Positions 41,552 through 60,228 of a DNA stretch of 64,000 nucleotides are shown piece by piece. The translations under genes were made by a program, and so were the position numbers. The first letter of the stretch is position 1; each line of letters begins with the position of its first letter. Source of the DNA: Nemania diffusa (lineage: Eukaryota > Ascomycota > Sordariomycetes > Xylariales > Xylariaceae); NCBI GenBank assembly GCA_038501195.1, contig JBBPUQ010000004.1:3038001-3102000 (forward strand), written 5' to 3'. A model generated the notes under the pieces. That model did no database searches. It worked only from the letters and a program-made list of their open reading frames with translations, and was not told the DNA's origin.

Positions 41552-42331
41552 ATGACGACCTTCACCAGGCTTCGCGGGGATGAGACTCCGCTCATAGAAG
41601 TCGATGCGGCCAAACGGCTATCCAAGATCGATCCTATGACATATGGCGGGTTCACAGAGTAAGTGATACCAAATGAGAAAAGATAGGAATGAGGAAGCAA
41701 AGCAGCAGACTAACCTTACCCTGCTAGACACATGGGCCGGTGTATCTACGGCGGCATCTACGACCCGGGGAACCCCCTCTCAGACGCCAACGGCTTCCGC
41801 AAGGACGTCATGGACGCGCTGCGGGAGCTCGACGTGCCCGTGATCCGGTACCCGGGAGGCAACTTCGTAGCGACGTACCACTGGCAGGACGGCGTCGGGC
41901 CGCGCGAGAAGCGGCCGTCGCGCCCCGAGCTGGCCTGGCTGGGCACCGAGACGAACCAGTTCGGCACCGACGAGTTCATGGCCTGGCTGTCCGTGCTCTC
42001 GGAGGGCATGCCGAGCGGGAAGCGCGTGGAGCCCTACCTGTGCCTCAACATGGGCACCGGCACGCTCGACGAGGCGCTGGCCTGGGTCGAGTACTGCAAC
42101 GGCACGCGCGACACGTACTACGCGAACCTGCGCCGCGCCCACGGGCACCCCGAGCCGTACGCCGTCAAGTACTGGGCGCTGGGCAACGAGGTCTGGGGCC
42201 CCTGGCAGGTCGAGCAGATGACGGCGGCCGACTACGCCAAGAAGGCCGCGCAGTGGGCCAAGGCGCTGCGCCTGCTCGACCCCTCGCTCGTGCTCGTGCT
42301 CTGCGGCCAGGACGGCACCGCCTCCTGGGAC
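41552..42331 (+). pseudogene. GH51 alpha-L-arabinofuranosidase, 5' half (interrupted)
   Basis: Exons 41552-41658 and 41728-42331 encode the first 237 residues of an intracellular-type GH51 enzyme, which removes arabinose side chains from arabinan or arabinoxylan fragments. The join FTE-HMGRCIYGGIYDPGN is the family N-terminal strand. VIRYPGGNFVATYHWQDG and YWALGNEVWGPWQ follow; the Glu in GNE is the acid/base. The frame runs to CGQDGTASWD and is then broken by the 17.9-kb insertion; reading on gives a stop soon after. The nucleophile lies in the other half at 60229-61059. Very GC-rich third positions up to the break contrast with the AT-rich insertion edge. Likely inactive unless the element leaves precisely. 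Confidence 0.93.
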
Positions 42332-42342
42332 CAACTTAACCG

Positions 42343-42384
42343 CTGGAGGCTTGATTTTCCATTTTTAGCAAGATCTCAGCTCTG
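42343..42384 (+). repeat. Left terminal inverted repeat
   Basis: 42 bases beginning CTGGAGGCTTGATTTTCCAT, exact reverse complement of 60178-60219. Imperfect pairing continues to about 42465 through GGAGTCTGTTGCGGGAGTCT. Confidence 0.95.
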
Positions 42385-42470
42385 TAAACATGTTGCAGGA
42401 GTCTGTTGCGGGAGTCTGTCTTACTATGAAGAGTTTTAGACAGAAGTCTATTACGGGAGTCTGTTTTGCA
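42385..42470. repeat. Left subterminal AGTCTGT repeats
   Basis: Several copies of GGGAGTCTGT or GGAGTCTGTTG in direct orientation, spaced by about 12-45 bases. The right end has the same motifs in inverted orientation. Such arrays often bind the transposase of the element; that is inference here. Confidence 0.8.
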
Positions 42471-42581
42471 TACAAAGACGTCTCAATACTCTTATTATCC
42501 AGGCCTTTGTTTCCGCCCTGCGAAACATACATAGCCGGTCTCAAGATGAAGCTATTCCTAGACATACATACTACCACCAAT

Positions 42582-45500
42582 CTAATCAACGTCCGGTTTC
42601 GCAATTGCTTCGTAATATCCATATTCCTGAGACCTTCTCAAGTAAACCCAAACGACAACCTCTTGTGCTTGGACTGGGTCCCCTTGGCCTTGTACCTGTG
42701 GCAGCCACGCTTCATTAGTCCCGTCTTCTGTCTGATAAATAATACCGACTCGATACCTAATTGAAAGCGCTTTCTGGTCTGCCCAGGTCTGAAGACCGCA
42801 CTGTAGCACCTCAGGAGTAAACTCGTTCGTATCCGTAATACCTAGTTGTTGTTGAACAGTGCATACTGCAGACCTCAACACCTCCTGTCTCGGAATGGGT
42901 AGATCTTTGCCTGGGAATTGTCTCTCTAACGACTGAATCACAGAACGTACACCACGTGAAAGGCCTTCGCCGGAAGTCCAATGCCGCTGAAATGCTGCGT
43001 ATGGAAAAGCTTGAATAGCTGCAGAAGTAGCTTCCAAGTTCCAGTATGAGCCAATCTGCTCAATCTTATCGCTTGCTCGCCACTTAGCCTCACCAACCAA
43101 AACGCGTAAATGACAAGCCTGTGATAGCTTGCTAAGGTTAGGCAAAATCGGTTTTGTAGCAGGAGAGAGACTAAGCGTCGGGCTTGCAGAGCTAATCTTA
43201 GGCTCTTGTTGTATCAAAGACGGCTGTTTGTGAGTTAAAAACTCCGAGTCCGAGTCCGAGTCTAGCTCTTCTATATGCGACTCTGGTTTTACATCCGTGT
43301 TCAGCTTACGCTGTTTAGCCGGGTTGATTAGCTGTTTTTTTAGGTGTACAGCCTGTTTATGCCGCTTAAGCTTACTCTTTTCTGCAAAGGCAGCTCCGCA
43401 TATGTCACAGACAAATGGTTTCTTTCCAAGGTGTACAGCCTGTTTATGCCGCTCAAGATCACTTTTTTGCGCAAAGGCAGCTCCGCATATGTTACAGAGA
43501 AACGGTTTCTTTCCAAGGTGTACAGCCTGTTTATGCTGCTCAAGATTACTCTTTCGCGTAAAGGCAGCTCTGCATATGTCACAGACAAATGGTTTCTCTC
43601 TAAGGTGTACAGCCTGTTTATGCCGCTCAAGATCACTTTTTTGCGCAAAAGCAGCTCCGCATATGTTACAGAGAAACGGTTTCTCTCCAAAGTGTATAAC
43701 CTGTTTATGCTGCTCAAGACTACTCTTTCGCGTAAAAGCAGCTCCGCATATATTACAGGAAAACGGTTTCTCTCCAAGGTGTACAGCCTGTTTATGCTGC
43801 TCAAGATTACTTTTTTGCGCAAAGGCAGCTCTGCATATGTTACAGAGAAACGGTTTCTCTCCAAGGTGTACAGCCTGTTTATGCTGCTTAAGATGACCCT
43901 TTTCCGCAAAGGCAGCTCCGCAATCTTTGTAAGAGCATAAAAACATATCCCAATAATTTTTTACATTGCGGTTATATGCCTCGATATTTTCAGGATGTTC
44001 ATAGTCCTCGTGAAAGCGACAGGTTTCGCCCGAAAGAAACTTTTCCGAGCATAACCTGCAGTCGAACGTTATACCCAAGTAGTGATGATTAACCATATGA
44101 CGTGTGCGCGAGCCTACCGACAGCTGAGGCATATGACAAACCGGGCATGAAAAGTCATGCACTTCACCATTGATCCATGGCTCAACTGGCAGCAAAGCGC
44201 TACACGCAAATTGTCGCGGCGGGCATCTGACCTCTTCTAGCTGCAACTCAACCCCCCAGATCTTACTACCCATTGTATCACAGGGGGCAGCAAGTGCACC
44301 ATCCCACGGGATTGACTGGATAGCTGCGCTTACGTCTCGTGTGATGTCGGCATCGTACTCGCCTTGCCCGTGATTAGTTATTGTAGTAGTAAACTCCATA
44401 GTCGAGCGCCCTAAATTCCAACTAGAAACATAATCGAAATCTTGATCATCGGCAGCGCCTTGATATCCTGTCTCCATCGCGATATTATGTTGAGGGTAAC
44501 TCCCGATAGTTGCCTTTGTCGGATGGTTCACAAAAGGAACTAAAGGAAAACATGTTCGGTCAAGGCCAACTTCAAAGTGTAGTTTGTCCACATCTGAGTT
44601 TGGGGTTTTGGCCTTTAGCTGTTGCAGCTTAAAACATAGCTGATGTGCAATTTCGCATAAGAACCGTTCAGGCGTCAGATTCTTTTCGTTAACATCTAAT
44701 GCCACTGCAGCCCGATCGCATTTTTTTAGCATTTTGATTCGTGCTTTTGCCCAACCAAAAGTAGTATCGCAATCCCAGAATGTTAGTTGGGCAAAAGGGA
44801 CGCTCCATTTATGAAATGGGTAAAAAACCCTCTTTCCATAGTGGTTGACTGATGGAATTGTTAGATACATGTCAAACTCAGCTTGACTAATACCGTAATT
44901 CCGGGCGATCTGGAGCAAAATGCCATATAATTTATCATGTGGGCGATGATCAAATCGGCGATGTTCTTGTGTAGGGCATCCGTCGTAAGGCTGAAAGATT
45001 CGACTTCGGAATTGATTTGGCAATCGCAGCTTCCATTGTGATAAAAGCTTTTCGACAAGACTTGAGCAGATGCCAGTCCGTAGCACTTCGAGAAGCTCTT
45101 GAAACTGCATGTTGTCATTGTCGATAATCTGTTGTAGCTTGCCAAGTCGATTTGCGCGGTTCGGAATGCTTATGCCACAAAGAACATGGATCACTATGCA
45201 GTTTATCAAGGCGTAAAAAAGCCATCTTAGCTCGGGTTCTTTGGCTTTAAAATCGCGCTGATCATGCCAAGTACGCAACCACTGCCCTAATAAAGCAAGA
45301 ACAACCGGAGCCATATATCGCTTTGCAAAGTTTATGCAATTAAAACTTAGAAACAAGTTATTCTTTGCATGATTTGCTACGATATGACTATCGTTATCAA
45401 GGACAAGGCTTGCGCAGTTATATGCTGCATCAAGGGAAAGGCTAAAAAGACCAGAGTCTAATTGTAGCCGAAGCGCTGTCCAATCGCAGTACCCAATCAA

Positions 45501-46145
45501 CCGATCTTGATGTCCAACTTGATCTTGATGTCCAACTTGATCTTGATGTCCAACTTGGTCTTGATGTCCTTGATCTTGGTTTCCAGCTTGGTCTTGATGT
45601 CCTTGATTTTGGTTTCCAGCTTGGTCTTGATGTCCAACTTGATCTTGGTTTTCAACATGATCAAAGAAGGTCAATAGATATTCTAATGACTCTTTAATAT
45701 ATTGCTCTCGTGCTTTCTTTTCAACGTAAAACAACAAGCCGGGTTCTCCAAGGTCGTTCTGGCACTCGTGAGATATTTCTTTCTGAGTTGTCGCAAATAA
45801 ACGAACTTCTAAAAGCTTACGAGGCCCCCAAGTTGCATGGATTGGGTTTGAGTCGTGTTTTTTTTTTTTCACTTGTATATAGCCATGGTCATCTCGTGTC
45901 CGGTCGCCTTTTTCTCGGATCGGCTTTTCTGTGTCCAAACCAGCCAGCTCTTTGTTGACAGTATCAGGCAGCTCCTTGTCAACAGCATCAAGTAGCTCGT
46001 TCTCGGGGCTTAAGTCTGAAGCCTCTGAATTATCGTAACCACTATGGTCGGTATCATACTCCTCATCTTGAGCTTCATACTCCTCATCTTCCAAGTCCCG
46101 CACTTCAACATCATGATCGCTCTTGGCAGCGGACCTAGTCCGCAT
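42582..46145 (-). CDS. Element-borne large protein with nine C2H2 fingers
   Basis: One exon, 1187 residues from ATG at 46145 (MRTRSAAKSDHD); the frame further 5' has only TTG. An acidic start is followed at about residues 160-215 by a VGHQDQ/AGNQDQ repeat. Residues 220-660 form a region with no domain I know (motifs FCHKW-like YPFHKWSVPFAQLTFWDCD). Then come two divergent fingers (CPVCHMPQ and CRLCSEKF) and seven tandem TFIIIA-type fingers of 28 residues each, near-identical (for example CNICGAAFAQKSDLERHKQ). The last 200 residues include AKWRASDKIEQIGSYWNL. It could be the DNA-binding factor of the element, reading subterminal repeats, or even its transposase; neither is shown. It runs towards the left end, with its stop about 240 bases from the tip. 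Confidence 0.85.
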   Translation of the reverse strand: MRTRSAAKSDHDVEVRDLEDEEYEAQDEEYDTDHSGYDNSEASDLSPENELLDAVDKELPDTVNKELAGLDTEKPIREKGDRTRDDHGYIQVKKKKHDSNPIHATWGPRKLLEVRLFATTQKEISHECQNDLGEPGLLFYVEKKAREQYIKESLEYLLTFFDHVENQDQVGHQDQAGNQNQGHQDQAGNQDQGHQDQVGHQDQVGHQDQVGHQDRLIGYCDWTALRLQLDSGLFSLSLDAAYNCASLVLDNDSHIVANHAKNNLFLSFNCINFAKRYMAPVVLALLGQWLRTWHDQRDFKAKEPELRWLFYALINCIVIHVLCGISIPNRANRLGKLQQIIDNDNMQFQELLEVLRTGICSSLVEKLLSQWKLRLPNQFRSRIFQPYDGCPTQEHRRFDHRPHDKLYGILLQIARNYGISQAEFDMYLTIPSVNHYGKRVFYPFHKWSVPFAQLTFWDCDTTFGWAKARIKMLKKCDRAAVALDVNEKNLTPERFLCEIAHQLCFKLQQLKAKTPNSDVDKLHFEVGLDRTCFPLVPFVNHPTKATIGSYPQHNIAMETGYQGAADDQDFDYVSSWNLGRSTMEFTTTITNHGQGEYDADITRDVSAAIQSIPWDGALAAPCDTMGSKIWGVELQLEEVRCPPRQFACSALLPVEPWINGEVHDFSCPVCHMPQLSVGSRTRHMVNHHYLGITFDCRLCSEKFLSGETCRFHEDYEHPENIEAYNRNVKNYWDMFLCSYKDCGAAFAEKGHLKQHKQAVHLGEKPFLCNICRAAFAQKSNLEQHKQAVHLGEKPFSCNICGAAFTRKSSLEQHKQVIHFGEKPFLCNICGAAFAQKSDLERHKQAVHLREKPFVCDICRAAFTRKSNLEQHKQAVHLGKKPFLCNICGAAFAQKSDLERHKQAVHLGKKPFVCDICGAAFAEKSKLKRHKQAVHLKKQLINPAKQRKLNTDVKPESHIEELDSDSDSEFLTHKQPSLIQQEPKISSASPTLSLSPATKPILPNLSKLSQACHLRVLVGEAKWRASDKIEQIGSYWNLEATSAAIQAFPYAAFQRHWTSGEGLSRGVRSVIQSLERQFPGKDLPIPRQEVLRSAVCTVQQQLGITDTNEFTPEVLQCGLQTWADQKALSIRYRVGIIYQTEDGTNEAWLPQVQGQGDPVQAQEVVVWVYLRRSQEYGYYEAIAKPDVD
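43340..43930 (-). repeat. 84-nt tandem repeats coding the zinc-finger array
   Basis: Seven head-to-tail 84-nt units code fingers three to nine of the large zinc-finger protein. High DNA identity (the run AAGGTGTACAGCCTGTTTAT recurs in most units) points to recent duplication or gene conversion. Confidence 0.9.
45500..45655 (-). repeat. Short in-frame repeats (GHQDQ coding)
   Basis: Units of 15-18 nt coding VGHQDQ, AGNQDQ and GHQDQ lie within the zinc-finger gene, with TTGATCTTGATGTCCAAC on the + strand repeated. Low-complexity and likely variable in copy number. Confidence 0.85.
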
Positions 46146-46189
46146 ATTGTAGTAGTGATCAAGTAAATAGTTGAGACAGGGAAAGGTAG

Positions 46190-46420
46190 AAAAGCAAGGC
46201 TGGGAATAGAAGAAAGGGGCTCTAGATAAAGAAGTTGTGTCGGTGAAGTTGTGTCGATGTAGCAATAATAGCTAGAAGTAAAGACGATGTTGTAGTGTAA
46301 AAGAGCAAGGCTGAAGAAGGGGCTCTAAATGAAGACGATGTTGTAGTGTAGAAGAGCAAAGCTGGGAATAGAAGAAAGGGGCTTTAAATGAAGAAGTTGT
46401 GTCGATATAATAACTAGCTA
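46190..46420. repeat. Imperfect direct repeats upstream of the zinc-finger gene
   Basis: Three imperfect copies of a segment with GCAAGGCTGGGAATAGAAG, AAGGGGCTCTAAATGAAGA and AGTTGTGTCG-like motifs, in the likely promoter of the zinc-finger gene. Confidence 0.7.
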
Positions 46421-46505
46421 ATGTTTTCTTCTGCTTTTATCTGCTTTTTTCTACCTCCTTCTACCTTCTCCTGCCCTCTGTCGACCTCTACACACTCTTT
46501 GCTCC
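46406..46505. repeat. Segment duplicated at about 48848-48940
   Basis: ACTAGCTAATGTT followed by a pyrimidine-rich block with TCTGCTTTT, CTCCTGCCCTC, GTCGACC and ACACACTC occurs here and, in the same order, near 48848-48940. A direct duplication inside the element. Confidence 0.8.
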
Positions 46506-46809
46506 AGCTGTAAAAATATATTAGTGCTTGACCAAACGTAGACAAAAGTGTAGGTCGGAACGGGAAAGTCGCAGCGAGAACAACCCAGACGGTAAAAAAA
46601 GGTTCGCCTAGCAGTTTGTAGCCTTTTTTGTCTAGTTGTTGCAAAAACCTAAGGTAATAAAAGACGCGGCCTGGACGTAACCGTGGCCTCTTTAACCTAC
46701 AAGAGGTGAAAGAAATTTTATATCATAAGCATAAGCATCATTTGCATATTCCCAACTGTCATTTACATAGGACTACACACACCTTATTTATTACATACAC
46801 CCGTACACT

Positions 46810-47486
46810 ATGAGGTTTGCACGGAAGGTTTTTAGATTACCCCCTGGTCCCCCATCTCGCATCATCGTCTTTCTCCCCGAGACTCCAGGCTTGCTAGAGC
46901 ACGGAAACCAGCTAGGACTACACTATTGCAGACCGGTCCATCTTGCTATTTCTATGGCGCTTATTGCATTTGGCAAACATCCAGATCATTACCCACAGAT
47001 CAGAGAAGAGTTGGTAGACGTCTTTGGGCATCGAGGCGTAAACGAGAGAGAGAAGGTTCTAGAGCGCATCAAGAGGTTTGGTGCGCCTAAGCGTGTTAAG
47101 ACAGCTGCGGGCCTTGTGCAGTGGTACCTAGAGGTAGGCAATGTGCATGTCTCTTGTAGCTCTTGCTAATGAGATAGGAACGATTTCCCGCCCCAGGATT
47201 TGTTTATCTGCCCCGAGGCTGGGATGATAGCGATGACGATGGCGACCTAAAGAGGAGCAATGACGAAGATGAAAACGCTAACGATGCTGGGCGCAAAAGC
47301 GAGACTAAAGATAACAAAAATGGCAGCAAGACAGACGATGATAATAGCGCCAGCAGCAGTCGTAGCCATGCGCATGTCTTACCCAAACGCTCGGCTGATC
47401 AGGCGCTCGGCCAGGACGAGGCCGGGTCCGCCGTGGGAAAGCGAGTTCGATCCATGTCATTCGGGACGAGTGCAACAGGCGCCTGA
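46810..47486 (+). CDS. Element-borne small protein with acidic tail, unknown
   Basis: Two exons (46810-47133 and 47178-47486) with a 44-nt intron that ends GCTAATGAGATAG encode 210 residues. The join reads LVQWYLE-ERFPAPGFVYLP. The first 120 residues look globular, with basic runs (MRFARKVFRLPPGPP, ERIKRFGAPKRVK). The rest is hydrophilic and rich in Asp, Asn, Ser and Lys (GWDDSDDDGDLK, KTDDDNSASSSRS), ending in a basic cluster, so a nuclear protein is possible. No family recognised. It points away from the zinc-finger gene and shares its promoter region. Confidence 0.6.
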
Positions 47487-47629
47487 CCAGGCGAGACCGA
47501 TGCGAAAACCACGGCCATCACAAGGGGCACTACAGACGTACATCTAAGGAAAAAGGGATGTGTTTTCTAGGAGAAGTAGAGACGCAGGTGCGGAGGACTG
47601 CCAGAGTCGTTGTGTTCAGGGTTAACAGT

Positions 47630-47845
47630 AGTTGTTGGTAACAGTGCCTATAGCTTGTTGTAGCTGGAGTGCGAAAAGGATTGATCCGCATAGCATACTA
47701 TTACACTAATCAAGAGATCAAGGCAGGTCACACACACCTTCAGCACACTGAGTCAGAAAATAACCCTGCAGATGGCTTGACCAAGCCTTTTGATCGTACC
47801 AAACATGCAAAGTTTATAAAGTTGTTAAGTCTTAGTGAGAGGTAA
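47630..47845 (+). mobile_element. Ty1/copia relic, RNase H end
   Basis: A short open stretch ends the way copia polyproteins do: IRIAYYYTNQEIKAG, HLQHTESENNPADGLTKP, then FDRTKHAKFIKLL and a stop at about 47843. Only the last 54 or so codons of the RNase H domain remain; the rest of the polyprotein is gone. The segment is nested in the large element. Confidence 0.8.
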
Positions 47846-48440
47846 CTGATCATGTTGTTGACAATGGCAAAAGGTCAGGGCGGGACTAGGTCCCTATCAC
47901 CACCTTGACCAAGCCTCTTGATCGCACCAAGTAAGGTAACTAATCATGTTATTAAAAAGGGCGGTTGTTAAGTCTCAGTAAGGTAACTAATTATATTGTT
48001 GAAAATGGCAAAAGGACAGGCCGGGACTAGGTCCCTATCACCACCTCACATGTCAGGTGGTCAACTGCCGAAGCACGTCCATCGACCGACAGCGGTGAGG
48101 AGAGAGGTCATCTCTGACTACTCATTTACGACTTTACCCCCTTAAGGATTTGCACCTTCCGATGTTTCAAGGGTCATCGTCTCCTATGAAGCCTCCAGTT
48201 GATTGAGGTATGGTTAGAGGGGTTAGTTAGTGGGGTTTTTACTTACCTGCTTATGTGATTGGTCCAATCCCTCCTCCTGGTGGGTCCTGGTGGGTCCTTG
48301 GTCCTAGGTCCTGGGTCCTGGTATGGCCATTCCTGGTCCGGGGTAGGATCGGCCACTATTAGGTCTTATATACCCCCTGTGGTGTTGAGGGGTCAAGATC
48401 ATTGTTGAAGACATCTTCATTTGTGTGTGAATTGCACCAA
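47846..48440 (+). repeat. Probable remains of a copia LTR and duplicated 3' flank
   Basis: Right after the copia stop, GGCAAAAGG..CAGG..GGGACTAGGTCCCTATCACCACC occurs twice (about 47866 and 48004), and the coding end LTKP.DRTK recurs in decayed form near 47908, so the 3' part is duplicated. A TATATA-like promoter box near 48365 fits an LTR. Exact LTR ends were not found. The same spacer motif GTGCCTATAGCTTGTTGT (47643) recurs as GTGCCTGCGGCTTATTGT at 48644. Confidence 0.5.
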
Positions 48441-48545
48441 AGGATGATGGTGATGGAAATGTCAGAAACGACGGTTTTTGAGAAAAGTGGGGCCACTCCT
48501 AGAGCTGTTCCGGTGCGCCTGACCAATTGAAATGCAAATACATTG

Positions 48546-48630
48546 GGCCAATGGTCTAGTGGTATAATTGCACACCTTTTAGTGGAGAAGGGTCAAGAAG
48601 CGTGTTCAATTCCCACGATTGTTTAATTTT
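48546..48630 (+). other. tRNA-like sequence (pseudogene or SINE head)
   Basis: TGGTCTAGTGGTATAATT matches a tRNA A box and D arm of the proline type, and GTGTTCAATTCCCAC matches the B box and T arm about 45 nt further on. The acceptor stem halves (GGGCCAA and the bases after the T arm) do not pair, so it is not a working tRNA. It may be a tRNA-derived SINE or a decayed copy. Confidence 0.5.
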
Positions 48631-49007
48631 ACGAGGGGCAACAGTGCCTGCGGCTTATTGTGGCTGGAATGCAAGGAGGATTGAGGCGGTCTGTGTGTTA
48701 CAATAGTAAAGTGTTTATTAAGTGGGAACTGGACCGAGCTCTGCGCTACTGGTTTTACCTGTGTACTTGCCCCTAGATACGCACACTACTAACAATTTCT
48801 CGATATCTAAAGATTGCTACCTGCGCTGAGTGACGAAGCTTGATAGCAATGACTAGCTAATGTTATCCCCTGCCTTTATCTGCTTTTATCTACCCTCTCC
48901 TGCCCTCCGTCGACCCCCACACACTCGCTTTGTTCCGAGCCTCGCTTCAGTACTGTAGGTAAGTGTGTCGTAGTATGCTCAACTTTCCTTAAGCTGACAG
49001 GTAACAG
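48631..49007. other. Spacer inside the element
   Basis: Holds the second copy of the segment seen at 46406-46505 and otherwise nothing recognisable. Confidence 0.55.
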
Positions 49008-50577
49008 CTATGTAAACCAGGTCTCGACAACTCTCCACGAAAAGCCGCTCTGTGAGATAGCTGCTAGCTTAGCCGTAGTAGGGTCAGATTTGTTGCTGCG
49101 AGTCGTTTCCAAGTACGACTCCCACAACGCAGCGGTTCGCCGTACTTCCCTTATCCTCTCTTCCTCGCTACGGTCAGCGTGCTTTGCCCAAACATGGCCC
49201 CACAGGCTAGCAACCCTGCCAAAACCCTTGATACGGCTGCACAGCTGGCAGGCGAGGGCTGGGCGGCGGGGACCGCTTTGCCTTTGCGTGACCAGGTCGA
49301 GAGGTTCCGCCCGGACAGCCTCTAGCGACGAGGGGAGCTGGTTTTCGAATGTCGGATACCGGTGCCACGGAGGCCGGGCAGGGGGCGCCTGGCGGAGCCC
49401 GTGTGCCTGCCTAAAAATAGATACCTGGATGGTGCATGCTTCGAACATGGTGAGCGAGGCGTGCTACGTGGCTACCGTTAGCAAAGCGGCGGCAGAGCGC
49501 GGGGGCGCGACGGCCTACCTGCATCAGGCATGGTGGGTTATGGAGGTGACACTCTGGCGGGATGTCTCTGCCATGGGTCCGCAGGAATGATGCACGCTCC
49601 CGGCACACTTGGCGGTGGATGTTGCACGAAGCCGGCTCGTACACGAGGTGAGACGGGTTTACACAGAGCGGGTTGTGGCACCTGTGTGAGCCATCTTGCC
49701 GCTGGTATGGGCCAGATTCGAGGAAGGCGTCGAGCTGGGCTCCGGTCCGCGGCCAGTCCTTGAACCACGCGATCGCGCGCGCCAGGGTGGTCATGTGGTC
49801 GTCGTGCCTGTACATCTGCGGGCTACGTTAGCGTCGACCCCGGCAAGAGTAGTGCGTTGCCCCGGCACTTACTGCACGGCTGGAGCTGGCGAGGGCGCAG
49901 TTCTCGAACTTCAGTAGGCTAGCGAGAGCCTCTGGCTCGAGCGCCCGCCAATCCTCGGGCCAGACGACGCATGTGCCTGAGTGGGACGTGCCCAGCCCCC
50001 ACGATGCCATCAGCCGAGACACGTGGCCTTCTAGGTGGTCCTTCCCGCCCTGGGACAGCCACCGAATGCCCCTGATCTGGCCCGGATACTTCTTGGAGAC
50101 GACCGCTTCGTACGCCGGCATGACGTCTCGGAAGCGGGCGCGCCCCAGGAGCCCCTCAACCCCCAGGTAGTCTGCGTCGCGCGGGTCTCTTGCGCGGGTC
50201 ACCCGCCCCGGGTCCGGGAAAAGCGCCGATAGCGCCGGCAGTGCTGCCGCATGGGTTGCGAGTGTCTCTGGCACCCAGGGGCTCAGCGGAGGTAGAAATA
50301 CGCCGGGAGGGGTGCCGACGTCGATGCCGACGTCGACCGCTGCTACGCCCGACGACTGAGTCTTGTTAGTGCGGCTTCTGAAGGCTAGGGCCGGTGGCTA
50401 TACCTGGATGACGAACGTCGACGCCTTGCCGCGCTTGTTCTGCCCATGTTGCTCTCGGACGTGCCGCAGCAGATTAGCCGCTCTCGTGAAATTCAGGCCA
50501 CAAGGGGTGCCTCCGACCATCGTACTGCACGTATGTTGGCGGCCCGGCCTGCGGTGCTTCCAGATCTGTACACTCAT
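49008..50577 (-). CDS. Element-borne His-Me finger (I-PpoI-like) nuclease candidate with C2H2 fingers
   Basis: Four exons (50404-50577, 49873-50361, 49519-49815, 49008-49463) encode 471 residues. All joins are in phase 0, and the introns (42, 57 and 55 nt) each hold CTAAC. A C2H2-like finger opens the protein (C17, C26, H39, H44, in CSTMVGGTPCGLNFTRAANL). Around residues 265-292 HRCHNPLCVNPSHLVYEP, then N..R..C, resembles the zinc-binding loop and catalytic His-Me region of the I-PpoI homing endonucleases (SHxCHNxxCxNPxHLxxE....NxxR..C). Near 392-415 lies another finger, CQLCSRIKGFGRVASLWGHV..KH. The family call rests on the motif. A DNA-cutting role in moving or spreading the element is a reasonable guess. 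The ATG at 50577 follows an in-frame stop. Confidence 0.75.
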
Positions 50578-52543
50578 CTCGGCGGTCGAGAGCAGGGGGG
50601 ATAAGGTATGCGACTAGGTAAATAGGAGTAGTGACACCTTTAAGGAGGGAGCTATGTCGTAAAGAACGGCTAGTACTGGAGAAAGGGCGACCGAGGGACG
50701 ACTAACCCCTTTTACTAAGGCCTGCTGCTTCCCTGCTATGCCTTTTCTTTGTTTATTATTACTGGATCACGATACTAAACACTTCTGCTCTAGGAGTAAG
50801 ATGCGAAACATATCAGATGACGTGGGTGATTCTCTTGACCTCTAGCAGCAGAGCTAGTCCAATACTACCCGGTCATCTTAAAAACAACAACAAGCTAGAC
50901 ACGCTCTACCAGCCGTCCTAAACAACGTAAAAAGTGATGACGACTGGGCCGGCAGCAGCCTCTGCTCAAGACTCACAATACGAGCGTTGTCCAGGGCCCC
51001 TTTGTCCCTAGCTCTTCTAGCTCATCGCCAGTGCGTTTTTATACCTTGAAGCGGCGGCTTAAGTTATAGAAAGACCGTTAGAGCTCGTGGCCCATTTACC
51101 ACGGCCATCTTATACCAGAAAAAAAGCCGCGGCCTATGGCCCGTCACCATGCTGCACGGAAAGATAGGCCGGGCATAAGCACACCGCAACATATCACTTA
51201 TCTAAATCCACACCATTGCTACTAGTCAGAACCCCAGATGACAAATCGCAATACGGCATCTTTTGCTCCCCGCAAAGCCCTAGATGACGGAAACCACTTG
51301 CGTCAGCTAGACGAGCGAGCGCTATCGCCCTGTTGTCTGCCCCCTATTTCCTACTACATGAGCTCACGGGAGGAGAGTGGGCGCTGAGACAGGCGCAACA
51401 GACACAAGCCGCCCCCTCTGGTTCAAGCATATACGGCCTGATCAACCGATATATTGCGTGATCCAGGAGGCTTTCAGCGTGCCGATCCACCCTACTTTGC
51501 CGGTTCGGCCTTGGTTGAGACCTTATGAGCTACGAGTTTGGTGACTGTCATCCCCACTGATGACACGCGCCAGTCGGCGGCGCTCTCCCCCCTTCGCAAC
51601 AAACCCGTGAGCCCCTGGATGTCAGTTTCTACTAGCCTGTACGCGGGGCCTCGTCAGCCGTCCCAGTGCTTGACACGTCGATACGAAACCGACGCACAAC
51701 TGCATGCATATCCCAACACAGAGCAGAGCAACACCCGTGAGCCCCTGGATGTCAGTTTCCACCAGCCTGTACGCGGGGCCTCGTCAGCCGTCTCAGTGCT
51801 TGACACGTCAATACGAAACCGACGCACAACTGTATGTGCAAGACTACTCTAGTTTCCGGAAAGTTGAACGAGCCGGGGGGAGACCAAACAGAAGGTCTAA
51901 GAGGATGACATCCCATAGTTATTATGACGTAGCAGAAGGGTCGTGGGCAAGTCACGAGGCGTCCTGGTCTGGCCAGCCAGGACGCCGTCTCAGTGCTTGA
52001 CGCGTCAATACGAAACCGGCGCACAACTGAAAAGTTGAGGGAGCCCGGGGAGATTAAACAGAAGGTTTAAGAGGATGACATCTCATAGTATTATGACGTA
52101 GAAGAAGGGTCGTGGGCAAGTCACGAGGCGTCCTGGTCTGGCCAGCCAGGACGCCGTCTCAGTGCTTGACGCGTCAATACGAAACCGGCGCACAACTGAA
52201 AAGTTGAGGGAGCCCGGGGGAGATTAAACAGAAGGTTTAAGAGGATGACATCTCATAGTATTATGACGTAGAAGAAGGGTCGTGGGCAAGTCACGAGGCG
52301 TCTTGGTCTGGCCAGCCAGGACAGCCTCACGGCTCGCCTACGATACCGCGAACTCTTAGCCTGGCCAGCTAGATATTGCTTAATAAACCATGTTACTACT
52401 ACAGAAACTGCATTACCCTTTAATACTAAGCGGTCTCGGGTGCCCGCATACGTAAAGATGTAAACTGTGTTTCGTAAAATGCCCAAGACATTGCTGATCT
52501 AAAACGTCCGCGCTATCGCTACCGGACAAAGACGAGGCGATCC
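50578..52543. other. Element spacer with tandem repeats
   Basis: About 2 kb. 50600-51530 shows no clear gene; a 49-codon frame at 51239 (MTNRNTASFAPRKALDDG) might be an exon, without support. The repeats from 51556 on are listed apart. Confidence 0.5.
51558..52322. repeat. Tandem repeat array, about 169-bp unit
   Basis: Two near-identical 169-170-bp units start at GCCGTCTCAGTGCTTGACGC (51984 and 52153) and end GGCCAGCCAGGAC. They are preceded by diverged copies (from about 51601 and 51731) that share CCCGTGAGCCCCTGGATGTC and GTACGCGGGGCCTCGTCAGC. Each full unit carries GAGGATGACATC, TATTATGACGTAG and GGTCGTGGGCAAGTCACGAG. It lies upstream of the five-gene + strand group and does not code. 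Confidence 0.88.
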
Positions 52544-53542
52544 ATGCGGGCAGAGCAATCGCCTGTTCCCCTCCGTGGTGATCGCCCGGCCTCCTTCATA
52601 CCCTATAAGCATCTGCTCCGGCCGCTGAGCAGCCCGCCTCTTAGGTCCCCACCTAAGGTTCGACCCTACCAAGGAACCCTGCCGCAGAACCCTGCCACGA
52701 TAATGTGTCCCTCTGACCCCCCCGACGTAAGTGAGCCTCGGCAACCGTCCCCTGTCCCGTCACCGCGCCGAGACTGATGAGCAGCGCTGCAGGTGGTGTG
52801 TGGACGGCCTCTCGCCTTGGTTGCCACCAGGATCTGGTTCAGCCCGAAATGCAAGATCAAGAAGTCAGCCTGGCTAGCTTCTACTAAGGCCCAGATGCAG
52901 TCCGTCAGAACATGGCTCATGGACCAGCTGCTGCTTCAGATGTACGGGCCAGGCCGTAGCGACGAATACCGCCGCATAGTTGCTACCAAAGTAGGAAATA
53001 GCCTTCATTCCGAGCTGAGCCAGCTTGTCAAGGAAGGAGTGGTTGGAGCTAAGATGGCGCGGAACGGGTATGAGATAGTGTGGCCTGATTGGACAGAGGC
53101 CTGGTCTCAGCCATATTGGAACGGCAACAAGTCTGAGGAGGCGTCTAGGGCGGTTATGGAAACAACGCGTATTCCTCGACCTATTACACCTAGCCCTGCG
53201 GGTGATCGACCTGTGTTTCCGCCACTGGCCGTGCTGCGGGATGAGAGCGGTCGACCCGGGGCCGCCGCTCGGGATAAGACGTACCTTTTTGAAAGGCTGC
53301 GACAGTTAGCAGATCAAAAGGGCCGGATCAATAATGATCTGGCTAGCTGTGAGCACGAGACTCGCTTGTTAGAGGCCAGGGTTTGGAGTGAGTTGGGTGG
53401 TCAGGATGCTACGGTGCCAGGTGTGTGCTCGACGCTTGTAGCTAGCATCATCGGTAGCGGTCTGTACGAGAGGATGCTGGAGATGGAGAGTCAGAGGGAC
53501 CAGCTTGACACTCAGATGCTACAAGCATTAAAAGAGATATGA
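52544..53542 (+). CDS. Element-borne protein, unknown (gene 1 of the + strand group)
   Basis: Two exons, 52544-52726 and 52793-53542, with a GTAAGT...GCTGCAG intron, give about 310 residues; a start at the later in-frame ATG (52703) would give about 257. The second exon alone has only a GTG, so the upstream exon is needed. The first part is Pro-rich. The core, WLMDQLLLQMYGPGRSDEY and KMARNGYEIVWPDWTEAW, looks globular. The last 100 residues are likely helical or coiled coil (RLRQLADQKGRINNDLASCE, MLEMESQRDQLDTQM). No family recognised. It is followed after 300 bases by the J-like gene in the same direction. Confidence 0.6.
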
Positions 53543-53840
53543 GACAACGGGACAACAGCCCCAAGGAATAAAGTGGTTTTTATGTATCACGCTGGATCAA
53601 GAAAACCTTTTGACTCAGTTCTGTAACCTTAGTAAAAAAGCTTCCGACTCGGTTTTGAGACTACATCACACATTCCCGTCACCAGTTCAATCAAAGCACA
53701 TTTAAAGATATAAACTATTTACACCATCTTTTTTATTGTTATCTTAAAATCACAAGCCTTTCTATTGCCACCTTAGCAGAAGCATTATTCTACTCTTATT
53801 TCACCACAATACTATTACCATCACTTCATCAGATACTACA

Positions 53841-54286
53841 ATGCACTTGCCTGCCCCTAGCCTAATCATCACCTTGGTTGTCGCCATCGTTGCATCTATT
53901 CTAGGCTACTCGCAGTGGCCGACTTCCGATGGTAAGTATTCGATTCTAGCGCACCTACTATAGCTCCTGCTAACGTAGTACGTCTTATAATAGAGGTTTA
54001 TCTCCGCCATATCCACAACGACGTCACCCTATCAGTTCAAAACCCGAATGCGGACCTGTACTCCTACCTTGGGTTGCAGCAAGAAGCCTCTGCGGAAACG
54101 ATCTACGAAGCCTACAAGGACATGTATCTCCGCCTCGTGATGGACAAGGCGTCGACGGCAGACATAAGTCTGCTAAGTGGTGTGGTTACTGTTTTAACAT
54201 CTCCCCAGCTTAGGGACAGGTACAACCGGATGCTGCGTGAAAAAGGACAGATGTTGGACCTTAATTTTGGACAAAGGACCAGATAA
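53841..54286 (+). CDS. Membrane-anchored J-like protein lacking HPD
   Basis: Two exons (53841-53931, 53994-54286) with a 62-nt intron encode 127 residues. An N-terminal hydrophobic anchor (LIITLVVAIVASILGY) is followed by a segment shaped like a DnaJ J domain: ADLYSYLGLQQEASAETIYE (compare DYYKVLGV...EIKKAYR), a second helix, then LLSGVVTVLTSPQLRDRYNR (compare A..VLSDP..R..YD). The HPD tripeptide that switches on Hsp70 is missing; VMD stands at that place. So it may be a J-like protein that does not stimulate Hsp70. It is gene 2 of the + strand group. Family call from pattern only. Confidence 0.65.
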
Positions 54287-54641
54287 GGGGGAGGGGCGTG
54301 ATAGGCCGTCGCGTTAGCTGCGGCGAGAACGTGTATACTCTGCGGAATACACGTACTATATCAGATTCCCTAATAGCTGTGAACGCAATATCCGCCTCCC
54401 TCATCAGATCATAACCCTGCGCTTCTGATGACAAGTTGCGGACTAGTAGCCGTGGGCACGTATTTGCAGAAGCTTGATATGTGATCAATATTAAATTATT
54501 TCGGCAATAGGCAGTGTAGTAGTTGGCAGAGTCTTTCGTGTTATATATACATCTTCTTTTTACTCTGCTTGTTTTTTGCGCTTACACTTTGCTCATTACG
54601 CTTTTCTAAAGTGTTTGCTTACTATTTTTAACGAACTAAAG

Positions 54642-55916
54642 ATGCCAGTCAACGAGCAAATTCGGCGAAGAAATCTGATGGATGAGTTACGTGAACATCA
54701 ATTATGGAACTCCGGATATGACGCTGGCCTGGCGGAACGGGATACGTCGACTCCCAGTCACGGCACCGGCCCCTCAGTCACGGCACCAAACCTCTTCTGC
54801 AATATGACTCGGCCAGGTCTTAAGGTTCTTCTTCTCTTTGGTGCCTGTTTAATTGGTTATTATATAACTACATGGATGTATCCATCTAATTCGATGTACC
54901 AAATCACGTTGAACCCTATGGTGAATAAGAAGCTGCATCTGGACGTTGCACCCCCGGGCTTCTTCCGTAATGATGACACGCGCCAGTCGCCGGCACTCTC
55001 CCCCCTTCGCAACAACCTAGCTTTTTCCGCGGGCGTCCTGCGATCGGCCTGCGCAGCTGCCTCAGACCCCATGTCCCCCCATATCGGAGATAGCTATCGG
55101 GAGATAGCGGAAGCCATTCGACTTGTCCTAGAAACCGGTCATACCCGCCTCCGGCGCTTGTCTAACGCTCAACGCAAAGAGGTCGCCGCCTTAAGCATGA
55201 TCATAAAGGAAACTAGCCAGTTGCTTGAGACACGGTGCGGTGAAGACACTCGCTACCGCATTGTCGGCTGGATCTGGCCTAGACACGGATGCACCGACAT
55301 GTCTGCATTGGCGACCACGGACCAGATGTTAGAGCTGAAGGGCAAGCTGATAGGCCTCGCTTCGGGCAAGCCGCCTTTATCGACCTTTATAAGCCTTAAT
55401 GATGAAATTGCTACGTCTCTGCAGGAGATTGACTCTAGGCTAGAAACTGTGGGGCTCGCAGTTAGCCGCAGCTTTACCTGTGTCTCGCTAGGTTTAACCT
55501 TTAAGGATTACATTCGCTACTTTACCGAGTTCACCATCTTCGACAGCTTTCCAGTGCTCGGCCGCCTGTTCCGGTGGCCTAGGCTCTGGAGCTGGATTAC
55601 TGGTACCGACGATATGGCTATCCGGTTTCTGGCTCGCAGTGTGATAGGTCATACGCTTAGCGTGCGCGAAGACGTCGCTGCGGCGCGGGCCAGGTGCGAC
55701 GAGTGGACAAAGGCCTTTGCGGCGAGAGGAAAGACTTCGCCTGGAGACGAGTTGAATCTCCAGGGAATCGGCGCGGGCGGCCAGGGGCTGGTGGACGCCC
55801 TGCGTAGCATATTGGACGCGGCGCAGAAGATCAAGCGCCAGCGGGATATGGAGGAGCGCATGGCCTGGCGATACCTGGGTCCTTTGTTTAGCAGCAGAGA
55901 CACCGTCCCTGCCTGA
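54642..55916 (+). CDS. Single-pass membrane protein, unknown (gene 3 of the + strand group)
   Basis: One exon, 424 residues from ATG at 54642 (MPVNEQIRRRNLMDEL); the frame before it has only TTG. A short cytosolic head is followed by one membrane span near residues 60-80 (VLLLFGACLIGYYITTWMYP). The rest is mostly helical, with EAIRLVLETGHTRLRRLS, SRLETVGLAVSRSF and RSILDAAQKIKRQRDMEERM. No known domain. Bases 54971-55014 within it match 51558-51601 in the tandem-repeat region with two differences. With the J-like anchor protein next door, a membrane-linked job is suggested. Confidence 0.68.
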   Translation: MPVNEQIRRRNLMDELREHQLWNSGYDAGLAERDTSTPSHGTGPSVTAPNLFCNMTRPGLKVLLLFGACLIGYYITTWMYPSNSMYQITLNPMVNKKLHLDVAPPGFFRNDDTRQSPALSPLRNNLAFSAGVLRSACAAASDPMSPHIGDSYREIAEAIRLVLETGHTRLRRLSNAQRKEVAALSMIIKETSQLLETRCGEDTRYRIVGWIWPRHGCTDMSALATTDQMLELKGKLIGLASGKPPLSTFISLNDEIATSLQEIDSRLETVGLAVSRSFTCVSLGLTFKDYIRYFTEFTIFDSFPVLGRLFRWPRLWSWITGTDDMAIRFLARSVIGHTLSVREDVAAARARCDEWTKAFAARGKTSPGDELNLQGIGAGGQGLVDALRSILDAAQKIKRQRDMEERMAWRYLGPLFSSRDTVPA

Positions 55917-56060
55917 TATGCGTGGCTGTTCAATATGCGTGGCTGTTTGAGGATGACGTGTCGGGCGTAGCAGGAGACTTTTGAAGTGTTGCAAAATGTT
56001 GCGACATCTAGGTGCCATACTTGATATACGTAGCTGTCTTGGTATATAGATAAAAATAGT

Positions 56061-58310
56061 ATGCGAGTATCCGAGACATATTTACAAACGCAACGCGCAC
56101 AACTCATCATGGAAGCTGCCCCCTTGTTACTTGCTCCTTTCTGCCTCTTCTCTCCCATCTCGATCGACTACCACGCTTCTAACTTGAGATACAACGCGAT
56201 CACCTACTACCCATCAGCGCAAACCCCTTACGTTCCTCGAACATCTGTCAGAATGACAGCCCCGTCTGGGTCTATCCCTAGAGACCTCTTGAAAAAGAAC
56301 CGGGCGCAGATTGAACCGGAGAACATCGAGAGAGGCCTGTTGACCAACGGCAAGACGGTCAAGGTTCTCAAGACAGAGCGCATCATGTACGAGTTGCAAG
56401 TCCCGCAGCATCTCTGGGCCGACATGATAAGCAGCTTGGCCGCCTCTGACATGGCAGATGGCGACTGTCATGTCGCTACCCTGCAAGGTTACTTGGGCGA
56501 TGCGGGCCGGGCGACTAACGATACCTCTAAGGCCGGCCTCATCGAAGCTATCTTCAAGTATTGGGTCCAAGCCGGAGACCTAAGTAGCGTAAACCCGATT
56601 GATAAAAAGGTAACAGGGCTGTCGCATCAGGTTGTATGATCTAGAGCTAATTATCTCGGGGATGCTAGGGCACTTCTTCCCGTCCGAGCTCCAAGTCACA
56701 GGGGGAGACGGCCTCCGCTATGGAGCTGGCGACTCCAGTCACCAAGCGCGATGTCCCCGAGGACCTGCCCATCCTGAGGCCCCGAGCTGTCGCATACGAC
56801 CCCCCCACCGCTGAAGGCACGCACTTAGGTTCCCCGTCGCCGCTGCGTAACTAATCCTCGGTAGGTATCAGGGGCTCGGTTGTCCTGGCTTTGGACTCTG
56901 CTCCTGCAGGACCCGAGGAGCGGGAGATCTCGGACGCCTACCGCGCAAAGTACGCCCCAGACCAAAACCCTCGTGTTCTTGCGGGTTCGCGCCTAAGCCC
57001 CCTGTCATCGGGCAGATCCCATTCAGGCACGGATGACCCCAACGCCTGGGCCTCGGCCTTGACGTTAGAAGAGCTCGAGAAGCGGGTACAATTCTCCCGG
57101 GCCCAGTCGGAGTCGCGTAAAAAGAATGCCCAGGCCGATGCTGTCTTTCCCGCCACCCAAAGTACGCACTTCTGCATCCCGCTACCACAATGCAACTAAC
57201 GCCATATAGACAGGAACGACCCGGGCATTGCATACTCAGGCTTGGCCCCTAAGCAAGATAAGGATGTAGGAGCCTCGAGCGCCGGCTCTATACAACGCTC
57301 TGGTCAACCAAACCCTGCCAGCTTCTATAGCTACATAGACCAGGCCGTCGGTAGCACCCGTGTGGGAAGCAGGCCTTACGACAGCGTGCACACGTCTCCG
57401 GAGCTGCAGAATCGCGAGAATAAAGCTGCGCTTACAGCACTTCCCCCGAGGTCGCATCAAGAGCCTCCAAAGCTATCGCTAGTAGGAAAGCTCACCGAGG
57501 CTATCTTTCCTTCTTCTAAAGGTATTTTTGCACATAGGCATCATTTTCGTCCTGTTTTTTAAACTTAAACTAAATACCTTTGCAGCGATTCCTTCTCAAA
57601 TTCAGACTGATCTTCGCCCTCCAGTTCAGATTCAACCCTCCCCTCAGGTTCGAACTGATCCTCGCCCTCAAGTTCGAACTGATCCCCCTTATCAAGGTCA
57701 AAACCCACCCTACACTCAAATTCAGACTGATCCTCGCCCTCCAGTTCGGACTGATCCCCCTTACCAAGAGCAAAACCCACCCTACACTCAAATTCAGACT
57801 GATCCCCGTCCTCAAATTCAGATTCAACCCTCCCCTCAGGTTCAAACTGATCCTCACATCAAGGTCCCTACCTATCAACCTCTGGGATCTACCCCCCCTA
57901 TGCGTCAGGGCACCCACCTCGGAGAAAAGCCTCCAGATCAAGAATCAATCATGCGATCTATTAGCGATACTTTTAATGCTCTCGAGACAACCGCTCCTGA
58001 ACAGCTTTACACGGATTCCTACCCAACATCGATCAGCTGTGTCGTTGAGCTATCCGATTACCTGGACCGCTTAGAGCAGGCACGGGTAATATTAGCAAAG
58101 GAGTACTATTCTGCGTGTGGCCGTGTTGATTCGGGACTTCGTACCCACGCTATACAGAAGCTCAAGAAAGAGTGGACTTTTCCTCCGGTAGAGCAATGGA
58201 TCGCGGTTCGCGATTGTTATCAACAAGCCCGTGTCAAGCTAGACACGTACATTTCCCAGTGCCTGCGATATTTCGCGAGTCTTTTACAACGATTTCCATC
58301 ACCTCCATAA
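56061..58310 (+). CDS. Pro/Gln-repeat protein, unknown (gene 4 of the + strand group)
   Basis: Five exons (56061-56609, 56669-56828, 56865-57161, 57210-57521, 57586-58310) keep one frame for 680 residues. Introns carry CTAAT or CTAAC; the second is only 36 nt, so that border is less sure. The first 180 residues have a globular look (ERGLLTNGKTVKVLKTERI, QVPQHLWADMISSLAASDM). The middle is disordered. Residues of about 440-540 are a repeat of QIQTDPRP, VRTDPPYQ, QNPPYTQ blocks. A helical end follows (VELSDYLDRLEQARVILAKE, ARVKLDTYISQCLRYFASLL). No family recognised. Confidence 0.62.
57586..57880 (+). repeat. In-frame Pro/Gln-coding repeats
   Basis: Repeated CAAATTCAGACTGATCC and CCCTTACCAAG/CCCTTATCAAG blocks, about 72 nt per larger unit, within the last exon of the Pro/Gln-repeat gene. 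All copies stay in frame. Confidence 0.85.
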
Positions 58311-58659
58311 TGCATAAGCAAAGCAGTTCTGGCGAGACATAGGGGTTAGAGTGTATGACAGATAGCTTCTAGCATGTAGACATGCTTTGTTTCACTATAA
58401 TAAAATAGTTTTATTAAAGCTAGAAAATCTGCCAACTTATTTAATATACTTCTAAATCTATCTAATTATATCAGGTCTCGAGGCTTCTGCTATTTTCTCA
58501 GTAGTTCTAGCGTTTAGTTTTAGCTGCAACCTTAGATATCTACTTTTTTAATATCGACCTTGGTATAATAGCCTGCTAGGTCTAGTATTATTATTATTCC
58601 TTTACTTGATATCTGTTAAACGTGTTTTCTACTAGTCTCGGCACGTCGCTATTGATAAT
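58311..58659. other. AT-rich spacer inside the element
   Basis: 349 bases, AT-rich. Probable terminator and promoter of flanking + strand genes; nothing specific seen. Confidence 0.55.
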
Positions 58660-60033
58660 ATGGAGACTCCTCGGTCGTCTACCCGTTGTTCTAACAAGGG
58701 CATATCCGTCCCCTCGCCGAAAACGAACCGTCGGAACCAGAGGCATTCAACACCTCAGACTCACACCCCTCAGACCCAGAACGCCCAGACTACGGAGATG
58801 GCGACCCCTACTCCTCCCAAGATTATAAGCCTGTTAGAAGATGGCAAGATATGCTTCTTATCTGTTGCAGAAGTTACCGGCATACTAGATCGGGCAGAGA
58901 ATCCGACTGAGACGATCACAGAGATATTCCAAGAGGTGGCACGGTATCAAGACAGTATCGAGGACTTTCAGATATGGGTGTCTCACCTGTGGGATCTAGC
59001 GCTGGACAGAGAACTGTGGAAAGGCAAATACGACACCTTTAGGCAATGGGTGGGCGAGTCCCATAACGAGATATGCCACACCATTGCGAGGGAAGGGTAT
59101 AAGATCAGGAACAGGAAAACAGAGGTGATCAGGTCGCTCACCTTGCTCGGCGCAGCTGGCCCGCGGTTCCAGCACCTGATCCGGTCGGAATCGCGCAACT
59201 TTCTCAACGCGCTGCGGAATCAGATGGCGCGCCACAACCTGAGCTATCCCCTTGCCGCAGTGTTATCTAACATTCAGACGTATCACCGGATCGCGCCTGG
59301 GGCCGCGGGTCGGCGGGGCATCCAGAGGACCCCTGGTACGCAGACGATCGACATCACCGGCCTCGACGGCGTCGTCTACCGCAAGCTGACCGACGAGGAG
59401 ATGACGGCCGCCCGGGTGGTGGTCGGCCCGCACGGCTTCCTGGTAAGCGAGCTGTCGGCTCCAGCACCTATCGAGGACGCGGAATTCGACAAGGCCGTCG
59501 AGTCGTTCGAGGTAGGCAGGCGGGCTGGCGAACAGTCGTCCCCGCTCGCAAAGGCCGATCTTCCTAAATCGGGAGACGGTGACGCGGTGCCCGGCGCGCG
59601 TGCGAAGCCCGTGTCTGTGAGACCCGACACGTTTCAGTTCGTAACCCAGTGTTCCTGTGAGACCTCTGTCCCGTCCGATCTAAAGGCAGCCCTCGACAAG
59701 ATGCATTGGTCGGCGGGATACGATGTTTTAGAACCTCTTATGGGCACGGTGGCAGAGGTTAAAGGGGCAATGTGCGTGCGCCACTGCCAGATCTGGCTAG
59801 TGTGTGGCCTTGGCGTGAATCAGCTAAAACACCAGTTAGATACCGATTACCTTGTCGACGAGATAACGAACCGTATGTATAAGCTAGGCGTGCAGGTGGA
59901 AAAGAAGCCTAGTGCGAAGAAGGACTTTTCCGACATGAAGAAAGGCCTAGGTTTCTCTTGGGACGACCTTAGCTCGATTAAGGTCCCTAAGCGCAAGGCT
60001 GTGTGCCAGGGGGGTAAGAATACCAAACAGTAA
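58660..60033 (+). CDS. Element-borne protein, unknown (gene 5 of the + strand group)
   Basis: One exon, 457 residues from METPRSSTRCSNKGI. A Thr/Gln/Pro-rich head of 50 residues leads into a likely helical region (LLEDGKICFLSVAEVTGILD, IEDFQIWVSHLWDLALDREL, TIAREGYKIRNRKTEVIRSL). Then a basic segment (RFQHLIRSESRNFLNALRNQ), a linker, and a tail with C-rich spots (QCSCETS, CVRHCQIWLVCG) and a basic end (KVPKRKAVCQGGKNTK). It could bind DNA, and sits next to the right end of the element, so it is one candidate for a mobility protein. No catalytic motif was recognised. Confidence 0.65.
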   Translation: METPRSSTRCSNKGISVPSPKTNRRNQRHSTPQTHTPQTQNAQTTEMATPTPPKIISLLEDGKICFLSVAEVTGILDRAENPTETITEIFQEVARYQDSIEDFQIWVSHLWDLALDRELWKGKYDTFRQWVGESHNEICHTIAREGYKIRNRKTEVIRSLTLLGAAGPRFQHLIRSESRNFLNALRNQMARHNLSYPLAAVLSNIQTYHRIAPGAAGRRGIQRTPGTQTIDITGLDGVVYRKLTDEEMTAARVVVGPHGFLVSELSAPAPIEDAEFDKAVESFEVGRRAGEQSSPLAKADLPKSGDGDAVPGARAKPVSVRPDTFQFVTQCSCETSVPSDLKAALDKMHWSAGYDVLEPLMGTVAEVKGAMCVRHCQIWLVCGLGVNQLKHQLDTDYLVDEITNRMYKLGVQVEKKPSAKKDFSDMKKGLGFSWDDLSSIKVPKRKAVCQGGKNTKQ

Positions 60034-60177
60034 ATCTAGCTCTAGACACTGTCTAAAACTCGGAATAGCTTCATAGTAAGACAGACTCTTCATAGTAAGA
60101 CAGACTTCCGCAACAGACTTCTGTCTAAAACTCTTCATAAAGACAGACTCCCGCAACAGACTCCCAAAACAGGTCTT
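60034..60177. repeat. Right subterminal repeats
   Basis: TTCATAGTAAGACAGACT occurs twice in tandem (60070-60105), and AGACTCCCGCAACAGACT and related AACAGACTTCTGTC motifs follow. They mirror the left-end GGGAGTCTGT set in inverted orientation. Confidence 0.85.
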
Positions 60178-60219
60178 CAGAGCTGAGATCTTGCTAAAAA
60201 TGGAAAATCAAGCCTCCAG
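60178..60219 (-). repeat. Right terminal inverted repeat
   Basis: 42 bases ending ATGGAAAATCAAGCCTCCAG, exact reverse complement of 42343-42384. Confidence 0.95.
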
Positions 60220-60228
60220 AGACGTGAG

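Follow-up and report, generated by a model that had tools for sequence, protein, structure and literature searches.

How is a 17.9-kb element that splits a host gene moved, when none of its proteins is recognised as a mobility enzyme? The question is raised by a 64,000-nt stretch of the Nemania diffusa genome (assembly GCA_038501195.1, contig JBBPUQ010000004.1, positions 3,038,001 to 3,102,000), hereafter the window, in which the element interrupts a gene for a glycoside hydrolase family 51 (GH51) arabinofuranosidase. The initial annotation had drawn its borders at 42332-60227; comparison with the ends of other copies corrected these to 42334-60230, with an ambiguity of one nt (Table 1). We read the element as a giant DNA transposon of Xylariales-type fungi that is self-contained and uses its own proteins as cutting enzymes, and we give this reading a probability of roughly 45%. 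If it is true, some fungi harbour giant multi-gene mobile elements of a second type, distinct from the Starships and with another mode of insertion.

The 55.6-Mb genome holds 27 copies of the element, including the one in the window, and two fragments. The left end had at least 40 matches in the genome and, when match rows were grouped by place, gene 9 was found at 27 loci, gene 1 at 28, gene 6 at 27 and the second exon of gene 3 at 25. Copies elsewhere with the same ends, which the initial annotation had proposed as a test, are therefore present. They lie at unrelated sites, as is characteristic of an autonomous DNA transposon, and we regard it as practically certain that the element is real and belongs to a family of mobile copies. 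All four searched genes (1, 3, 6 and 9) occur together in 24 of the 27 copies and three of the four in the other three, which argues for a fixed gene set; variable cargo was rejected on this ground. The constant gene set also argues that the element is autonomous, and we consider this quite probable. The proposal of a cargo carrier mobilised in trans gained no support, given these 24 copies and the absence of convergent ends closer than ~17.6 kb among the matches listed.

End-to-end length was 17.7-18.1 kb in nine other copies measured whole; among the matches listed, five further end pairs are ~24-27 kb apart and one is 49 kb. The extra DNA lies between genes 3 and 6 in the copy at C9:2420-2445k, between the A-end and gene 1 at C4:3695-3721k, and between gene 6 and the B-end at C4:5125-5151k. 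Because its place differs among these traced longer copies, nested insertions are suggested, and the idea that the 24-27-kb copies form a lineage of their own was rejected. Two unusual arrangements were also observed. At C3 ~3,656.2 kb, the ACTTAACC tips of two A-ends face each other across two nt, and B-end-like sequence lies on both outer sides; this is an inverted pair of mutated copies, perhaps a trace of end-to-end joining. At C3:4560798-4564070, one copy directly borders a second, truncated one, its B-end adjoining the gene 1 region of the latter.

Both ends were compared in 23 copies, the window copy among them. Copies with an end missing, not retrieved or oddly arranged stand outside this set (P10, the head-to-head pair at C3:3630-3688k and the copy at C1:1.58-1.60 Mb); P8 was kept, though its right flank sits inside another copy. 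Each of the 23 pairs consists of one A-end and one B-end, with CCA directly 5' of the A-tip in 20 pairs; the base that follows the B-tip is C or G, likewise in 20. When the flanks were joined unaltered, two extra residues appeared at the joint in a class II aldolase and in a GH43 protein (three of three printed alignments each), and at most two residues from the joint in an aldehyde dehydrogenase (again in three of three). These two extra residues indicate that six nt, usually CC on one side and AGGA on the other, belong to the element, and that the target is CCA|S (S being C or G). The three tests are independent of the assumed border, unlike that of the GH51 gene, where leaving out 42334-60230 restores one open frame whose joint is free of gaps in four of four printed alignments with solved GH51 enzymes (best match 8i0a, E 1.7e-45). 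That the halves of the host gene rejoin in frame, as had been observed initially, thus holds.

These results place the insertion at CCA|S and show no duplication beyond one ambiguous A, a one-nt duplication of A being indistinguishable from none; we are highly confident that no target duplication above 1 bp occurs. In the boundary scan, whichever boundary was chosen, 4-bp matches occurred in at most one of the 23 pairs, 3-bp matches in at most three and 2-bp matches in at most seven, with none of 5-8 bp; a wider scan, in which two rows were misplaced, gave one 5-bp match, inside the element. This bears on the possibility of an ordinary terminal-inverted-repeat transposon with a 4-bp target duplication, for which the initial annotation had pointed to GGAC on both sides of the window copy and had named 4-bp duplications at further copies as a test. 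GGAC does stand on both sides, but the 4-bp match is confined to the window pair and any choice of boundary yields one in at most one of the 23 pairs; we take it to be a coincidence, and this explanation to be scarcely credible.

The 42-bp perfect inverted repeat reported by the initial annotation is present, all 42 nt being identical on both arms (42343-42384 and 60178-60219, read by eye), but it is not terminal: a left tip of 9 nt and a right tip of 11 nt lie outside it, and the tips are unlike each other. The inverted ends as a whole (42343-42422 and 60140-60219) span 80 nt at 93% identity, with inner pairs of 43 and 39 nt. The A-tip begins with CC in 15 of the 23 pairs, CT in four, AC in two and CA in two; TTAACCGC is invariant among the 20 A-ends compared, and each base of TCCT is kept in at least 19 of 21 B-ends. 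Further inside, short repeats lie at both ends and are possible binding sites. The B-ends fall into two subtypes, TCCTCACGTCT..AGCAAGATCT and TCCTTGCGTCC..GGCAGTGTCT, which suggests two subfamilies. Single-strand folds of the ends were no better than those of shuffled sequences (z -0.59, -0.01, 0.83 and 0.50), and end hairpins were rejected.

Genes were read from open frames and by eye, gene 3 alone being spliced in a script, and nine plausible genes were obtained instead of the eight first counted. The Pfam scan covered their frames, for gene 2 by exon 1 and for gene 8 by the last exon, and recognised no DDE transposase, tyrosine recombinase, Rep/helicase or polymerase in them; NCBIfam and PHROGs, searched with six element proteins each, likewise named no mobility enzyme. 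In this respect the earlier observation stands. Beyond genes 1, 3 and 5, no telling family was found in the scanned frames by Pfam, NCBIfam or PHROGs, and the DnaJ match of gene 5 is weak (22.4 bits, below the cut-off of 27.8).

Gene 3 encodes the sole recognised nuclease centre and was chosen for this reason as the candidate. Its product starts with a finger-like CxxxxxxxC..HxxxxH motif, continues with an I-PpoI-like His-Me nuclease domain and carries a CxxC..H..H stretch near its end. It matches PF05551 with 56 bits, and the profile of its family matches I-PpoI with an E of 9.3e-05 over 31 residues. The catalytic His and Asn, named after the KolobokP paper (PMC9587614), are kept in the window gene and in nine of nine homologs that hold this stretch, one of the ten homologs being without it; PF00096 is annotated on four homologs (P0008-P0010 and P0012). 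PF05551 also occurs at eight further places in the genome, free of stops, on C14, C15, C11 and C1. Five matches on C14 and one on C15 have near-identical scores and are perhaps a tandem array of nuclease genes.

In the mechanism that we propose, one protein of the element would bind its ends by recognising the subterminal repeats, and would cut at both tips and, in the target, at CCA|S. The gene 3 product, with its zinc fingers and nuclease domain, would be the best candidate for the cutter, perhaps assisted by the products of gene 1, a finger array encoded beside the A-end, and of gene 9, encoded beside the B-end. That gene 3 makes the cuts is a tentative proposal from its sequence, to which we give somewhat less than even odds.

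The nearest parallel to this nuclease is found in KolobokP elements, which also encode a His-Me nuclease of the I-PpoI type with these catalytic residues (PMC9587614). By the same source, KolobokP combines long terminal direct repeats with a DDD/E transposase and is reported from animal phyla, whereas here the host is a fungus, Pfam recognised no such transposase and the ends are inverted; Kolobok elements produce TTAA duplications, and none was seen in our 23 pairs. The Spy group of the PHIS superfamily resembles our element in having a preferred motif and no target duplication, but its description gives AAATTT as the target and a recognisable DDE transposase (PMC4482050), as opposed to CCA|S, a length of 17.9 kb and no such transposase by family profile. 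Spy shows that a DDE element can insert without duplication. The main rival to our reading is a DDE transposase, too diverged for recognition and most probably encoded by gene 1, that would mobilise the element in the same way. The large conserved non-finger region of gene 1 could accommodate such an enzyme, and inverted and subterminal repeats are usual for DDE elements. However, no Pfam DDE family was found in gene 1, in its homologs P0016 and P0018 or in the other scanned frames, and unlike tips are unusual for DDE elements; we hold this rival to be rather unlikely.

Starships share with our element an ascomycete host and the build of a large multi-gene mobile element. The Sanctuary paper (PMC12506042) gives as their defining marks a captain, a DUF3435 tyrosine recombinase encoded by the first gene, and direct repeats of target origin on both sides; here no captain was found in the scanned frames, and flanking matches at the best boundary reach at most 2 bp, in seven of the 23 pairs. 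A hidden tyrosine or serine recombinase, encoded in the element or acting in trans, might nevertheless integrate a circular form. The short target core and the lack of duplication would suit site-specific recombination, and the genome has three DUF3435 matches, one of which, broken by stops, lies ~1.6 kb from an element fragment with gene 9 (C1:1432582-1435919). Against this, none of the three is on the window's contig, the scanned frames contain no recombinase family, and long inverted repeats are no hallmark of recombinases, so that we consider this possibility improbable.

Two further classes were compared by their general definitions. Helitrons encode a Rep/helicase protein, end in a 3' hairpin and insert without duplication; the last property is shared, but no Rep-helicase was found in the scanned frames and the end folds equal those of shuffles. 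Polintons/Mavericks, with a protein-primed polymerase B, a retroviral-type integrase and a capsid, are similar in size and inverted termini, whereas no polymerase, integrase or capsid was found here in the scanned frames (genes 2 and 8 being scanned in part). In a further reading, a linear virus or plasmid with inverted termini became integrated here; the many genes, the long inverted ends and the lack of recognised protein types would fit such an origin. The scanned frames hold no polymerase, capsid or packaging family, and IMG/VR gave no relative of genes 9 or 3, in a search with a narrow pattern step, and no exact match to the 36-nt end core. Viral relatives were rejected on these results, and an integrated virus or plasmid is very improbable.

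At least one tested defining feature failed for each of these systems, and the element was filed in none; no described superfamily among those compared fits it, and no published description of the family was found in the text available from open-licence papers. The proposal of a new family of large terminal-inverted-repeat element is supported by the many copies, the defined ends, the single insertion register, the constant genes and the Xylariales relatives of three genes. We take it to be a new form of DNA transposon and possibly a new superfamily. That this superfamily is defined by a zinc-finger His-Me nuclease as mobility enzyme, in place of a DDE, tyrosine or HUH enzyme, and by insertion at CCA|S without duplication is a more doubtful proposition, which we put at no better than one plausible outcome among several.

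Several points weigh against the reading of a self-contained transposon with its own cutting enzymes. The target was CTA, TCA or TGA in three of the 23 pairs, the right tip differs from AGGA in four, and the GH51 joint test takes the border as given. The relatives in other species are known as proteins alone, without their ends. For gene 3, our leading but putative mobility enzyme, the eight other PF05551 places imply that the domain can come as a passenger. The authors of the KolobokP study think that the His-Me nuclease, which stands there beside a DDE transposase, does not choose the integration site (PMC9587614). Finally, another enzyme fold may be hidden, since structure prediction with AlphaFold2 was poor for both the N-terminal part of gene 1 (mean predicted local distance difference test score (pLDDT) 31.6, 4 sequences) and gene 9 (mean pLDDT 40.4, 6 sequences); a PDB search returned 0 matches for the gene 9 profile and 0 for the gene 1 N-terminal sequence. 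Should the proposal for gene 3 hold, the element could be a case in which a homing-type nuclease was recruited for transposition, a point that the KolobokP work left open.

Relatives of the element's proteins were found in other fungi, the lists for genes 9 and 3 being lower bounds from the best 8,000 word-sharing candidates scored. Gene 9 has relatives in at least Nemania abortiva (85%), three Xylaria species and one further source, and gene 3 in at least ten proteins, the closest among those scored being from Hypoxylon argillaceum (91%). Gene 1 has relatives in Xylaria sp. FL0043 and X. curta, and one from a further source at 27%. Genes 9 and 3 presumably share a contig in X. flabelliformis and again in X. 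scruposa, as do genes 3 and 1 in FL0043.

Among the copies found, the window copy alone is intact; all other match rows of genes 9, 1, 6 and 3 have stops. Compared with it, ten other copies each carry 5,571-7,657 C-to-T or G-to-A changes, as against 7-104 changes in the reverse direction and 18-224 transversions; without P10, whose piece extends beyond the element, these ranges fall to 7-31 and 18-69. GC content is 7-22% in these copies, the value for P10 again covering outside sequence, versus 51% in the window copy. In the ten copies C is changed at 53-91% of sites whichever of the four bases follows, with CA highest or tied in nine copies and CT in one. Repeat-induced point mutation (RIP) is CA-biased. 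The damage looks like RIP, judged from the pattern of changes, though unusually complete: conversion in all contexts and down to 7% GC goes far beyond CA-biased RIP, and such near-complete C-to-T conversion is of interest in its own right for fungal genome defence. By transversions, nine of the ten copies are 99.6-99.9% identical to the window copy, which points to a burst of near-identical copies before the damage. Two accounts would fit the escape of the window copy: that it arrived once the last round of RIP was over, or that it was transferred. With one intact and 26 mutated copies, the question of the enzyme is directly testable.

Table 1. Features of the element and of its host gene (positions in the window).
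Feature	Position	Strand	Description	Basis
Whole element	42334..60230	.	17,897 nt; border ambiguous by one nt (an A)	23 end pairs and restored GH51 frame
A-tip	42334..42342	+	ACTTAACCG in window copy	end comparison
B-tip	60220..60230	-	TCCTCACGTCT reading inward; unlike A-tip	end comparison
Inverted repeat, left arm	42343..42384	+	42 bp, perfect	
Inverted repeat, right arm	60178..60219	-	42 bp, perfect	
Subterminal short repeats, left	42396..42467	+	GGGAGTCTGTCTT-like	
Subterminal short repeats, right	60049..60162	-		
Gene 1	42582..46145	-	1,187 aa; conserved N-terminal region, then C2H2 zinc-finger array; beside A-end	
Gene 2	46810..47486	+	two exons; no recognised family	exons by eye
Gene 3	49008..50577	-	469 aa, four exons	
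Gene 4	52544..53542	+	no recognised family	exons by eye
Gene 5	53841..54286	+	two exons; N-terminal hydrophobic stretch	exons and stretch by eye
Gene 6	54642..55916	+	424 aa; one hydrophobic stretch; no recognised family	stretch by eye
Gene 7	56061..56639	+	192 aa; no recognised family	
Gene 8	56720..58310	+	several exons; 24-nt repeat tract 57595-57879	exons by eye
Gene 9	58660..60033	+	457 aa; conserved in Xylariales; beside B-end	
Host GH51 arabinofuranosidase, upstream part	41714..42333	+	41714 is the start of the open frame, not a mapped gene start	open frame
Host GH51 gene, downstream part	60231..61059	+		

Among the minor features of the element, no tRNA or Rfam RNA was found in it. The stretch at 47,721-47,830, which reads TESENNPADGLTKPFDRTKHAKFIK, resembles by eye the RNase H end of Copia retrotransposons.

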